A DNA stretch of 64,000 bases from an uncultured Dehalococcoidia bacterium (GTDB taxonomy: Bacteria > Chloroflexota > Dehalococcoidia > Lucifugimonadales > UBA3495), in NCBI GenBank assembly GCA_958296225.1, contig OY282456.1:1054001-1118000 (forward strand). The letters are read 5' to 3'. The stretch's first letter is position 1; every line of letters starts with the position of its first letter. The translations under genes were made by a program, and so were the position numbers. Positions 7,143-14,919 of this stretch are shown piece by piece. The notes under the pieces are model-generated. The model was not told where the DNA came from. It was given only the letters and a program-made list of their open reading frames with translations, and did no database searches.

Positions 7143-8483
7143 CTACAGCAGCGGCAGGTATCGTGAAATCTCGTAATCCGTCACCGTTGAACGATACTGC
7201 TCCCACTCCTGCTTTTTGTTGCGAATGAGCGTCTTGAAAACGAAATCTCCCAACGTCTGGCGCAGCAATGCGCTATCCTCTGCCAGCGCGATGGCCTCCC
7301 CCATGCTGGTGGGCAGCCGGCTGATTCCCCGCGCCGCGCGCTCTTCGGCCGGCATACCGGCGACATCGGCGGTGATGGGGGACGGCAGCGGGTACTCCTC
7401 CGCGATGCCCTGCAACCCCGCCGCCAGCAGGACGCTGAAGGCCAGGTAGGGGTTGCAGGCGGGGTCCGGCGCGCGGTATTCCACCCGCAGGGAGGTCTCG
7501 TAGCCCGTTTTGTAGGAAGGCACCCGGATGAGGTCCAGCCTGTTGGATACCGTCCATGACACGTGCACCGGCGCTTCGTAGCCGGGCACCAGCCGCTTGT
7601 AGGAATTGACCCACTGGTTGGTAACCAGCGTGATTTCCGACGCATGGCGCAGCAGGCCGGCGATGAACCGCTTGCCGATGACCGAAAGGTGCAAGTCGTC
7701 GTCCGGGTCATAGAAGGCGTTGTTATTGCCGCGAAACAGGGATTGGTGGGTGTGCATCCCGCTGCCGTTGTGGCCGGTGAAGGGCTTGGGCATAAAGGAA
7801 GCGTACACGCCCTGCTGCTGCGCCAGCTCTTTGATGACCAGGCGCGCCGTCATCACGTTGTCGGCCATAGTCAGCGCGTCGGTGTATTGCAGGTCGATTT
7901 CGTGCTGGCTGGGCGCGCCTTCGTGGTGGGAATACTTGACGGGGATGCCCATTTCGGCCAGGTTCAGCACCGTGTCGCGGCGCAGGTCGGAGGCGGGGTT
8001 GCTGGACAGCTGGTCGTAATAGCCGTAGGTATCCAGCGGCTCCGGCTTTTCGGCGTCGCGCAGGTAGAAATACTCCAGCTCCGGCCCCACGTAGTAGATG
8101 TAACCGAGGCTGGACAGCCGTTCCAGATTGCGCTTGAGCACGTGGCGAGGATCGCCGATGAACGGCTCGCCCCGTGGCGTGCGGATGTCGCAAAAGATGC
8201 GGGCCACGGCGTTGCGGCGGGGACGCCAGGGCAACAGCGTGAACGTTGTGGGGTCGGGGAAAGCGCGCATATCGCTCTCTGCATCCGTGGTGAACCCCTC
8301 GATGGCGGCGCCGTCAAAGCCGACGCCCAGCTCCAGGGCGTCCTCCAGGTCGTCCACGGTGATGGCAAAGCCTTTCAGGTTGCCGAGGATGTCCGTGAAC
8401 CACAGGCGCACGAACTTGACGTCAAAGTCGCGGGCGCTGCGGAGCACGTACTCGCGCTCGGCGGCGTGGTGGTCGGTTAGCAC
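7143..8483 (-). CDS. glnA: Glutamine synthetase, type I, non-adenylylated form
   Basis: ATP-dependent ligation of ammonia to glutamate. 446 residues from GTG 8483, preferred because AGGAG sits 7 nt upstream and the length matches GSI-alpha enzymes; the longer ATG 8540 start would overlap hicA by 32 bp. GS landmarks are visible: GVGFDGAAIEGF, the EleYFYL metal site, NGSGMHTHQSL, and KRLVPGYEAP. The adenylylation-site tyrosine motif of GSI-beta is absent (ARGISRLPTS in its place). It follows hicBA closely. A second, different GS lies at 10172-11596. Confidence 0.92.
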   Translation of the reverse strand: MLTDHHAAEREYVLRSARDFDVKFVRLWFTDILGNLKGFAITVDDLEDALELGVGFDGAAIEGFTTDAESDMRAFPDPTTFTLLPWRPRRNAVARIFCDIRTPRGEPFIGDPRHVLKRNLERLSSLGYIYYVGPELEYFYLRDAEKPEPLDTYGYYDQLSSNPASDLRRDTVLNLAEMGIPVKYSHHEGAPSQHEIDLQYTDALTMADNVMTARLVIKELAQQQGVYASFMPKPFTGHNGSGMHTHQSLFRGNNNAFYDPDDDLHLSVIGKRFIAGLLRHASEITLVTNQWVNSYKRLVPGYEAPVHVSWTVSNRLDLIRVPSYKTGYETSLRVEYRAPDPACNPYLAFSVLLAAGLQGIAEEYPLPSPITADVAGMPAEERAARGISRLPTSMGEAIALAEDSALLRQTLGDFVFKTLIRNKKQEWEQYRSTVTDYEISRYLPLL

Positions 8484-10171: not shown

Positions 10172-11596
<1,425 letters not shown>

Positions 11597-11683: not shown

Positions 11684-12904
11684 CTACTGGTTCAAGCCTT
11701 CGCCGTGCTGGGTCAAGTCAATCCCAATCTCTTCCTCGTCGTCGGTGATGCGCAGCCCGATGGTGTACTTGAGGGCCAGCAGGATGATACAGGATACGAC
11801 GAAGGACCAGGCGAAAGCGGCGCCGATGCCGATAATCTGGTACAGGACTTGTTCGAGGCGGGAAACGTCGGCGTCCAGCGCGCCGAAGCCGACGCCCACG
11901 AAGATGCCCGTGGCCAGCGCGCCCCACATTCCCCCGATGCCGTGGATGCCGAAGACGTCCAGCGAGTCGTCGATGCGGAGCTTGTGGATAATTTCCACGG
12001 CGATGAAACAGGCGCCGCCGGCGCCGGCGCCGATGATGATGGCCGGCATCACGCCCACGAACCCGGCCGCCGGGGTGATGGCGACCAGTCCCGCCACGGC
12101 GCCGGCGGCGGCCCCGGAGGCCGATGGCCGTCGCGTAATTATCCAGGACACAATTGACCACGAGGACATGGCCGTGGCCGCCGCAACGTTGGTAACGACG
12201 AAAGCGTTGGCCGCGCCGTCGGTGGAGAGGTTGAAACTGCTGCCGGCGTTGAATCCGAACCAGCCGAACCAGAGCAACCCGGCTCCCAGCAGCACCAGCG
12301 GCACGTTATCGGGGGTCAGGGTTGCGGTGCCGAAGCCGCGGCGGCGGCCCACGATGAATGCGGCCGCCAGCGCCGCCGTGCCCGAGGCGATATGCACTAC
12401 GGTTCCGCCGGCGAAGTCCAGCGCGAAACCGGCCTCGCTCATCCCCAGCACGCTGCCCAGGTTGCCCAGCCAGCCGCCGCCCCAAACCCAGTGGCAGAGG
12501 GGGGCGTAAACAATCGTTACCCACAGCGCGGAGAATATTATGTAAGCAGAGAATTTGAACCGCTCGGCGAACCCGCCAGCGATGAGGGCGACGGTGATGA
12601 TGGCGAACATTCCCTGGAAGGCCATGAAAGCCTGCTCGTCCGGGCCGACGCCCACCATGCCGAACTTGGTCAGGTCGCCCACGAACCCCAGGCCGCCCAC
12701 GCTGGCGCTGAACGCCAGGCTGTAACCCCACAACACCCACAGCACGCTCACCACGCCAATGGCCGTGATGGAGTGCATCATCGTTCCGATGACGTTTTTG
12801 TGGCGAACCAGCCCGCCATAGAACAGCGCCAGTCCGGGCACCATAACGAACACCAGCGCCGCCGAGATTAGGAAGGAGAATACCTCCAGTTCGCTGAACT
12901 CCAT
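11684..12904 (-). CDS. amt: Ammonium transporter, Amt family (1)
   Basis: 406 residues, about eleven membrane segments. Amt hallmarks: PGLALFYGG near the N-terminus, CHWVWGGGWL, DFAGGTVVHIASG (pore His region) and FGIHGIGGMWG (second pore His). No cleavable signal peptide. The cytoplasmic tail ends DEEEEIGIDLTQHGEGLNQ, which in Amt proteins contacts PII. No glnK is adjacent. The start is ATG 12904 with GAGGGG upstream. Confidence 0.94.
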   Translation of the reverse strand: MEFSELEVFSFLISAALVFVMVPGLALFYGGLVRHKNVIGTMMHSITAIGVVSVLWVLWGYSLAFSASVGGLGFVGDLTKFGMVGVGPDEQAFMAFQGMFAIITVALIAGGFAERFKFSAYIIFSALWVTIVYAPLCHWVWGGGWLGNLGSVLGMSEAGFALDFAGGTVVHIASGTAALAAAFIVGRRRGFGTATLTPDNVPLVLLGAGLLWFGWFGFNAGSSFNLSTDGAANAFVVTNVAAATAMSSWSIVSWIITRRPSASGAAAGAVAGLVAITPAAGFVGVMPAIIIGAGAGGACFIAVEIIHKLRIDDSLDVFGIHGIGGMWGALATGIFVGVGFGALDADVSRLEQVLYQIIGIGAAFAWSFVVSCIILLALKYTIGLRITDDEEEIGIDLTQHGEGLNQ

Positions 12905-12993: not shown

Positions 12994-12999
12994 ATTATA
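12994..12999 (-). promoter_or_regulatory. Candidate -10 box for the amt-glnA operon
   Basis: TATAAT on the minus strand at 12999-12994, about 90 bp before the amt ATG. No consensus -35 hexamer lies 15-19 bp upstream. This fits an activator-dependent promoter served by the phased box at 13044-13081. Confidence 0.5.
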
Positions 13000-13043
13000 C
13001 AGTTGCCAGCAGAAAAAGCACTAATAAAGTGTAGATTTCCGGT

Positions 13044-13081
13044 GTTACGTACAAATGACGGAAATGTTACAAAGTTGTTAC
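13044..13081 (-). promoter_or_regulatory. GlnR-box-like operator upstream of amt-glnA
   Basis: On the minus strand four 5-mers are spaced by exactly 6 nt: GTAAC (13081-13077), GTAAC (13070-13066), GTCAT (13059-13055), GTAAC (13048-13044). Actinobacterial GlnR boxes are gTnAC-n6-GaAAc repeats with this same 11-bp phase. The array is centred about 65 bp upstream of the likely transcription start, an activator position. Seen in sequence; the regulator assignment is inferred. Confidence 0.6.
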
Positions 13082-13152: not shown

Positions 13153-13193
13153 ACCAAAACGAGGGCCGGGGGCGGCCACAGCCCCCGACCCTC
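13153..13193 (-). terminator. Rho-independent terminator of amt (2)
   Basis: On the minus strand a 13-bp stem (13193-13181 with 13173-13161, one G-T wobble, 7-nt loop) is followed by CGTTTTGG. It lies 35 bp past the stop of the amt gene at 13228-14574 and separates it from the amt-glnA operator, so the two amt genes are independent transcription units. Confidence 0.82.
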
Positions 13194-13227
13194 GCAGTAA
13201 GGAGGAGGAAATTTCCGGTTTAGAGGT

Positions 13228-14574
13228 CTAGCTGACGGCGGTGGCCTCCGGGTAGGTCTGGATGCCGTGCTCGGAGATGTCCAGCCCTTCCATTTCCTCG
13301 GCCTCGCTGACGCGCACGCCCATGGTGAACTTCAGCAGGTAGAACATTGCCAGGCCCGTAACCAGCGCCCAGATGACAACGGCGAGGATGCTGACAATCT
13401 GCGGGCCAATGAGCGTTGCGCTGCCGCTGACCAAACCGCCCTCTTTGGCGAAGATGGCAACGGCCAGCAGTCCCCACAGGCCGGTGAACCCGTGTACGCT
13501 GATGGCGCCCACCGGGTCGTCAACTTTCAGGACGCGCTCGACGAACATCACGGAGAAGTACATCACGGGGGCGGCGATGGCGCCGATGACTACGGCGGCC
13601 CACGGGTCAACGAAGCCGACGGGGGCGGTGATGCCCACCAGGCCGGCCAGCGCGCCGTTGCAGGCCATCAGGATGTCGGCTTTGCCTTTGACAATCAACG
13701 TGATGTACAGGGCGACTACCGCTCCGGTGGCGCCGGCCAGCAGCGTGTTGACCGCGTTCAGGCCGATGTCGTCGCCCCAGCCGACGTTGAAGCCGAACCA
13801 GCCGAAGAAGAGGATGAACGTGCCGGCGACCACGAAAGGCGTGCTGTGAGCCGGCATCTCCTGGGCGCGTCCGTTGATGAACTTGCCGATGCGCGGCCCA
13901 ACCACCCAGGCGCCGGCCAGGGCAATGAAGCCGCCGACGGCGTGCACCACACCGGAACCGGCGTAGTCCAGAGCGCCCATATTAGCCAGCCAGCCGCTGC
14001 CCCAGACCCAGTGACCGTAGATGGGGTAAATCAGGGCGGAGACGATGAAGCTGTAGGCCAGATAAGCCTGCAGCTTGGTCCGCTCGGCCATGGCGCCGGC
14101 TACGATGGTGGCGGCGGTGGCGGCGAAGACCATCTGGAAAATCCAGCCCACGTAGTCGCCGCTGGTCAGGAACCATCCGGTGATTCCGATGATGCCGCCG
14201 GCGGTATCGCCCAGCATAAAGGCGAAGCCGAAGGCCCAGAAGCCCAGGGACGCAATGGCAAAGTCCATAAAGGACTTGGTGAGGTAGTTGGTCGTGTTCT
14301 TGGAGCGGATAAGACCGGCGCCCAGGAAGGCGAAACCGGCCTGCATAAAGAAGACCAGCGCCGCGGCAACAACCGTAACGATGTCGTCGGAGTAGCCCTT
14401 GAGCCACTCGGTAGTGGGACCATCGTCCTGAGCGAAGGCGATGTTGAAGGACGCCAGCAACCCGATTGCCAGCAGTCCCACCGCCAACGCCAGCAGCGTG
14501 CGCCGCAGGGAGAAGGGGTACTCTTTCACCGCGGCTGCGCCGTGGCTGAATACGGATGATGTGGCCGAAAGCAT
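13228..14574 (-). CDS. amt: Ammonium transporter, Amt family with N-terminal signal-like segment (2)
   Basis: 448 residues. A hydrophobic leader (LLALAVGLLAIGLLASFNIAFA, given here as residues ~28-48) precedes the first Amt helix, as in many bacterial AmtB precursors. Pore regions: YGHWVWGSGWL, DYAGSGVVHAVGG and ISVHGFTGLWG. The C-terminal tail contains EEMEGLDISEHG, a PII-contact-type tail. It differs strongly from the first amt, so the pair is not a recent duplication. Start ATG 14574 after AGGAGG. Confidence 0.93.
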   Translation of the reverse strand: MLSATSSVFSHGAAAVKEYPFSLRRTLLALAVGLLAIGLLASFNIAFAQDDGPTTEWLKGYSDDIVTVVAAALVFFMQAGFAFLGAGLIRSKNTTNYLTKSFMDFAIASLGFWAFGFAFMLGDTAGGIIGITGWFLTSGDYVGWIFQMVFAATAATIVAGAMAERTKLQAYLAYSFIVSALIYPIYGHWVWGSGWLANMGALDYAGSGVVHAVGGFIALAGAWVVGPRIGKFINGRAQEMPAHSTPFVVAGTFILFFGWFGFNVGWGDDIGLNAVNTLLAGATGAVVALYITLIVKGKADILMACNGALAGLVGITAPVGFVDPWAAVVIGAIAAPVMYFSVMFVERVLKVDDPVGAISVHGFTGLWGLLAVAIFAKEGGLVSGSATLIGPQIVSILAVVIWALVTGLAMFYLLKFTMGVRVSEAEEMEGLDISEHGIQTYPEATAVS

Positions 14575-14919
14575 TTTTGCCTCCTAATCAGTTTTGAGGC
14601 GTCGTCTCGCAGCGCGTGGCCATCCGCCAGTGGCGGACTGCGGGCCGGCGTCCCGTTGGAATGTGACCAGCCCGATTCTATGGGCCGGGTATTAAACGGT
14701 GATTGCGGCCCGATTAACAAACTATTGCCGATAAGTAACCCCTGTGTTTCCCCCATCCGCCGATTACCACCATTGCCAGCGGTTATGTTACTAATAGAGC
14801 AGTGCCGGGCCGGTCTTGTCCGGTCACATAATCCGTAACCCCGGAAACGCGGCGCGGGGAACGAAAAGCGCGCTGGCATTGTCACAGGGGTTATGCAAAT
14901 GGCCGGGTAGGCAGTCCCC
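14575..14919. other. Intergenic region upstream of amt (2)
   Basis: 344 bp without a gene. It holds the phased box at 14713-14750, a TAGAAT hexamer (minus strand, 14680-14675) as possible -10, and a perfect 7-bp hairpin at 14623-14637 in the presumed amt leader. Nothing else recognised. Confidence 0.6.
14713..14750 (-). promoter_or_regulatory. GlnR-box-like operator upstream of amt (2)
   Basis: On the minus strand: GAAAC (14750-14746), GTTAC (14739-14735), GCAAT (14728-14724) and TTAAT (14717-14713), each separated by exactly 6 nt. The first two are the exact GlnR half-site types; the last two are degenerate. The same 11-bp phase as the box before the other amt gene makes shared nitrogen control plausible. 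Confidence 0.55.

Follow-up and report, generated by a model that had tools for sequence, protein, structure and literature searches.

A four-box array in front of an ammonium transporter and a glutamine synthetase gene of a SAR202-type Dehalococcoidia bacterium is very probably the operator of a GlnR-type promoter, through which an OmpR-family regulator is predicted to activate the gene pair, amt2-glnA, under nitrogen shortage. GlnR-type control outside Actinobacteria is well supported at the sequence level because the array is rare, is associated with amt and glutamine synthetase (GS) genes, has a -10 element at a +10 spacing, and is accompanied by GlnR-like regulators. We are evenly divided on a wider proposal, namely that these bacteria possess an undescribed GlnR-like regulon with two paralogous readers, together with a family of membrane microproteins of 27 to 33 residues, encoded by the first gene behind the array, that may tune Amt or GS.

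Genes and the four-box array

The window, meaning the whole stretch of DNA analysed, covers 64 kb (G000:C1:1054001-1118000) of a 3.97-Mb genome with a listed contamination of 7.75%. The features discussed below are as follows.

10172..11596, minus strand: glnA, glutamine synthetase, 474 aa (Pfam PF00120, E 8.4e-137)
11684..12904, minus strand: amt2, ammonium transporter, 406 aa (Pfam PF00909, E 5.9e-117)
12994..12999, minus strand: TATAAT, probably not the regulated -10; not conserved in the congener G094
13028..13033, minus strand: -10 element TACACT of amt2, separated from the array by exactly 10 nt; identical in G094
13044..13081, minus strand: four-box array, predicted GlnR-type operator of amt2-glnA from its sequence, rarity, and conservation in G094
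13156..13194, minus strand: predicted intrinsic terminator of amt1, GC-rich hairpin followed by UUUU (fold -36 kcal/mol, z -4.2)
13228..14574, minus strand: amt1, second ammonium transporter, 448 aa (Pfam PF00909, E 3.2e-117)
14675..14680, minus strand: TAGAAT, -10 element of amt1, at a distance of 10 nt from its array
14691..14750, minus strand: degenerate six-box array before amt1 (GAAAC, GTTAC, GCAAT, TTAAT, GCAAT, TTAAT) at an 11-bp period

The preliminary description had reported four phased 5-mers at 13044-13081 preceding nitrogen genes, and both points hold. By direct reading and script rescoring, the minus strand carries GTAAC-n6-GTAAC-n6-GTCAT-n6-GTAAC at an 11-bp period, and this is the sole four-box array with at least 16/20 matches to GTAAC on either strand of the 64-kb window. 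The amt2-glnA pair is encoded on this strand and begins 140 bp downstream of the array. The gap from amt2 to glnA is 87 bp, a spacing at which the two are probably cotranscribed. Between amt1 and amt2 lies a strong hairpin followed by a U tract, which suggests two transcription units, amt1 and amt2-glnA; the hairpin is also recognizable in the alignment with G094. The window encodes a second glutamine synthetase domain (7158-8156, minus strand; PF00120), near which no match to boxes plus -10 appears among the matches listed from the genome-wide search.

Four copies of GTAAC with up to three mismatches occur at 5 sites in the 3.97-Mb genome, versus 0 for the reversed control. The stricter pattern GTAACN6GTAACN6GTNA has 2 sites, one before amt2-glnA and the other 110 bp before P0001, a regulator gene described below, in the interval between P0001 and a nirA-like nitrite/sulfite reductase gene (PF01077). 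Two boxes alone have no discriminating power (82 matches versus 111 in the control); one such GTAAC-n6-GTAAC pair is found in L064 (G000:C1:3226541). In G094, the array differs at 1 of 38 positions, in a spacer, and the flanking DNA has diverged.

The array takes the form of a GlnR box, GTnAC-n6-G[TA]nAC at an 11-bp period and often in two tandem copies. Its likeness to actinobacterial GlnR sites, noted at the outset, is confirmed by its fit to the published consensus, and the same architecture is seen across the arrays of relatives. Box 3 in the window (GTCAT) deviates from the consensus, which counts against reading the array as a GlnR operator.

Promoter geometry

The promoter as first described was placed at a TATAAT. 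That hexamer exists (12994-12999), but its lack of conservation in G094 led us to reject it as the regulated -10. The -10 that G094 does conserve is TACACT, at a distance of 10 nt from the array. Of 91 arrays, 65% have a YAnnnT at precisely 10 nt beyond their last box, versus 2.5% at offsets of 20 to 90. Taken as the -10, YAnnnT would put the boxes at about -60 to -23, with boxes 3 and 4 flanking the -35 position. Boxes and -10 combined in one pattern give 13 matches genome-wide, versus 2 in the control. Only amt1 and P0001 match without mismatch, amt2 having one; the match at amt1 comprises the last four boxes of its array and the -10. The amt1 promoter of G094 has the same boxes, followed by TAGCAT.

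A sigma54/NtrC promoter, Pho boxes, and the Firmicutes MerR-type TnrA/GlnR were set aside because the boxes repeat directly instead of forming palindromes and are followed, at a fixed spacing, by a -10 of sigma70-like form.

Arrays in related genomes

Across 118 genomes of the order, the pattern of four GTAAC copies with up to three mismatches had 142 matches, versus 17 in the control. Merging of overlaps leaves 122 arrays, counts that are not independent because the genomes are kin to each other. At least 61 of the 122 lie within 800 bp upstream of amt or GS genes on the same strand (at least 44 for amt and at least 17 for GS). With the strand flipped, 0 of 122 have such a gene within 800 bp among the gene matches listed, and 0.04 is expected from gene density. 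The arrays thus placed are in promoters of nitrogen assimilation genes, and further boxes of the same phase were found, as had been anticipated, at amt1 and P0001 (by nirA) and, in relatives, before amt, glnA, and other GS genes. The opposite outcome, absence of the regulator from this genome together with a motif commonly placed before unrelated genes, did not emerge from the searches.

The 30 best relatives of amt2 are bimodal. Fourteen have arrays scoring 16 to 19, which 0 of 60 shuffles reached; the others, roughly half, have scores close to or at background level within ~500 bp upstream. Among the other genes directly behind arrays are single cases with a likeness, judged by eye, to a PII-like protein, a urea-type ABC binding protein, and amidases.

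Outside the class, the array is weakly enriched phylum-wide, and we therefore make no claim for all Chloroflexota. Two Chloroflexota families that do not belong to the class (G133, G152, G161, and G179 in one; G172, G213, and G236 in the other) have array-like sites, which may be further GlnR-type regulons.

Within G000, two near-identical GTAAC-rich arrays lie 894 bp apart at L145:7160 and 8054 (G000:C1:1950159 and 1951053). The array at 7160 precedes a gene resembling, by eye, a DUF820/Uma2-type protein, and the pair is probably a local repeat rather than two members of the regulon.

GlnR-like regulators

The genome encodes 4 OmpR-family DNA-binding domains above the Pfam cutoff (PF00486). 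By alignment, L003 and L005 are canonical response regulators. The OmpR-type GlnR homologue that the preliminary description envisaged is present twice, in the form of two divergent paralogues of which P0001 only has an array upstream.

L007:8535-9224: P0001 (family A), adjoining nirA, with an array upstream
L009:7639-8310, minus strand: P0002 (family B), beside a recG-like gene, away from nitrogen genes, without an array

Both have an OmpR-type winged helix that is closest to GlnR (PF00486 and PDB searches). The best PDB match of P0001 is GlnR, with 104 bits versus 81 for MtrA, and that of P0002 is also GlnR, with 115 bits versus 96 for RegX3; the top matches of both are 8hig, 8hih, and 8hml. 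No matching GlnR model for either was found in NCBIfam, and no histidine kinase gene was recognizable by eye in the open reading frame lists around them. In the alignment, families A and B share with GlnR the helix GGTRTVDVH[VI]RRLR, a loop two residues shorter, and NVGY near the C terminus. The receivers of all three lack the conserved Lys of true response regulators. The acidic pair is missing as well from those of A and B (GlnR was compared without its N-terminal part), which are thus atypical receivers without the canonical phosphorylation pocket. A model of family A, of moderate confidence (pLDDT 66), has a receiver-like alpha/beta order; it was set aside as evidence for GlnR at that confidence because generic OmpR-family regulators make up most of its full-length matches. 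A tree with two GlnR sequences, both partial, places GlnR, A, and B apart from true response regulators with moderate support (82/90) and leaves their branching order undecided. Relatives of P0001 are labelled, for example, SAR202 cluster bacterium or Dehalococcoidia, and the name SAR202-type rests on these labels.

Regulators and arrays occur together. When any OmpR-type gene close to P0001 is counted (cutoff, 1e-15), with A and B pooled, arrays are present in 66 of 105 genomes with a match versus 1 of 13 without (p = 0.00016). Among small genomes alone, the figures are 11 of 25 and 0 of 11 (p = 0.015). Family B, defined as the best remaining P0001-like match per genome, is widespread; the tree confirms 38 of these sequences as one group. 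Of 69 B genes, 22 are located no more than 3 kb from amt or GS, versus 0.36 expected.

Family A might regulate the window promoters alone, with family B an unrelated housekeeping regulator. In this genome, arrays are strongest at amt1, amt2, and A itself; an array (at -61 to -184) stands before each A gene whose upstream DNA could be read; and B here has none and sits beside the recG-like gene. We nevertheless consider sole control by A rather unlikely, as arrays stand before amt and GS genes in many genomes without an A gene, and B adjoins amt or glnA in several of these genomes. Binding of the boxes by a phosphate-type response regulator (PhoB/RegX3-like), with a secondary link to nitrogen, is far less probable still. 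Pho boxes share the 11-bp direct-repeat design and GTCAT looks like a pho-box core, but most of the targets identified are amt or GS genes or their GlnR-like regulators, and arrays are almost absent upstream of the true response regulators that were sampled. That the phased boxes match by chance or reflect intrinsic DNA curvature, with no cognate regulator, can be practically dismissed: A/T-rich tracts phased at 11 bp can bend DNA, and a few arrays do precede unrelated genes (the two at G000 1950159 and 1951053 are an example), but strand specificity, the fixed -10 spacing, the footprint in G094, and the co-occurrence with regulators all speak against it.

Proposed mechanism

On the reading that we prefer, GlnR-type activation, regulator B, A, or both would bind the array. 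Four winged-helix domains of the OmpR-family regulator would sit head to tail on one DNA face, one per 11-bp box; binding in four copies is proposed because of the analogy with the GlnR transcription complex (PMC10704036). No good -35 accompanies the -10, and the bound domains would replace the missing contact, recruiting RNA polymerase of the sigma70 type to the -10 located 10 nt beyond the array. Transcription of amt2-glnA, and of amt1 from its own array, would follow at nitrogen shortage. Activation, and nitrogen limitation as its signal, are suggested by the genes controlled and by analogy with Actinobacteria. Family B (P0002 here) is most likely the reader across the order. Family A (P0001) is probably an autoregulated paralogue that reads the same boxes, by comparison with GlnRII in Streptomyces.

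Microproteins behind the arrays

The first open frame behind many arrays encodes a protein of 27 to 33 residues with the consensus MExILAGAAFxGLFxLWVVVPxxxxK; in G000 and G094, its length is 49 to 61 aa. Read from the sequence, it has a single hydrophobic span of predicted membrane type, and the family has no match in Pfam or NCBIfam. A profile search found 43 places in 36 genomes at E values of ≤0.001. Of these, 34 lie within 2.5 kb of amt or GS and 26 directly behind a listed array, counts biased towards arrays because the profile was built from array-adjacent copies. G000 has two copies near 1970 kb behind a third array (L144; G000:C1, about 1969985-1970309, minus strand). Further loci are L036 to L039, L046, L096, L100, L150, L151, and L156.

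Significance and comparison with known systems

SAR202 bacteria abound in the deep ocean, and the array with its -10 rule provides a motif for rebuilding their nitrogen regulon from genomes alone. The array also bears on the origin of GlnR, either before the split of Actinobacteria and Chloroflexota or by transfer, and the linked microprotein is a candidate small regulator of ammonium uptake. In the literature searched, which mostly excludes subscription journals, no paper was found on GlnR together with Dehalococcoidia; those found for GlnR with Chloroflexi or Chloroflexota seem unrelated, as far as their titles and abstracts go. The SAR202-type nitrogen regulon is apparently new to the literature.

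PhoB of enterobacteria, an OmpR-family winged-helix protein, binds the pho box, which consists of 11-bp direct repeats in an array ~10 bp upstream of the -10. The system described here has the same kind of winged helix, repeat, and array-to-10 spacing. It differs in having GTAAC instead of the TGTCA core, nitrogen instead of phosphate genes, and, in A and B, receivers without canonical phosphorylation residues.

The likeness to actinobacterial GlnR extends further. In Streptomyces venezuelae, the promoters of amtB and glnA contain four tandem copies of GTnAC-n6 (PMC3087709), and in the GlnR activation complex, four DNA-binding domains lie head to tail on four boxes (PMC10704036). Common to both systems are 5-mers at an 11-bp period, in tandem fours before amtB and glnA (PMC3087709, PMC10704036), and an OmpR-family regulator with an atypical receiver and nitrogen assimilation targets. 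The box of the actinobacterial GlnR regulon is gTnAc-n6-GaAAc, or GTnAC-n6-GTnAC in S. venezuelae, whereas box 3 here is often GNAA[CT]. Unlike the actinobacterial system, the present one belongs to another phylum and has two divergent regulator families, of which A is apparently autoregulated through an array and B lies beside amt or glnA in many genomes, and microprotein genes follow many of its arrays. GlnRII of Streptomyces, a second GlnR-like paralogue next to glnII, binds the same promoters as GlnR (PMC3087709); family A, in contrast, is linked to nirA and carries its own array.
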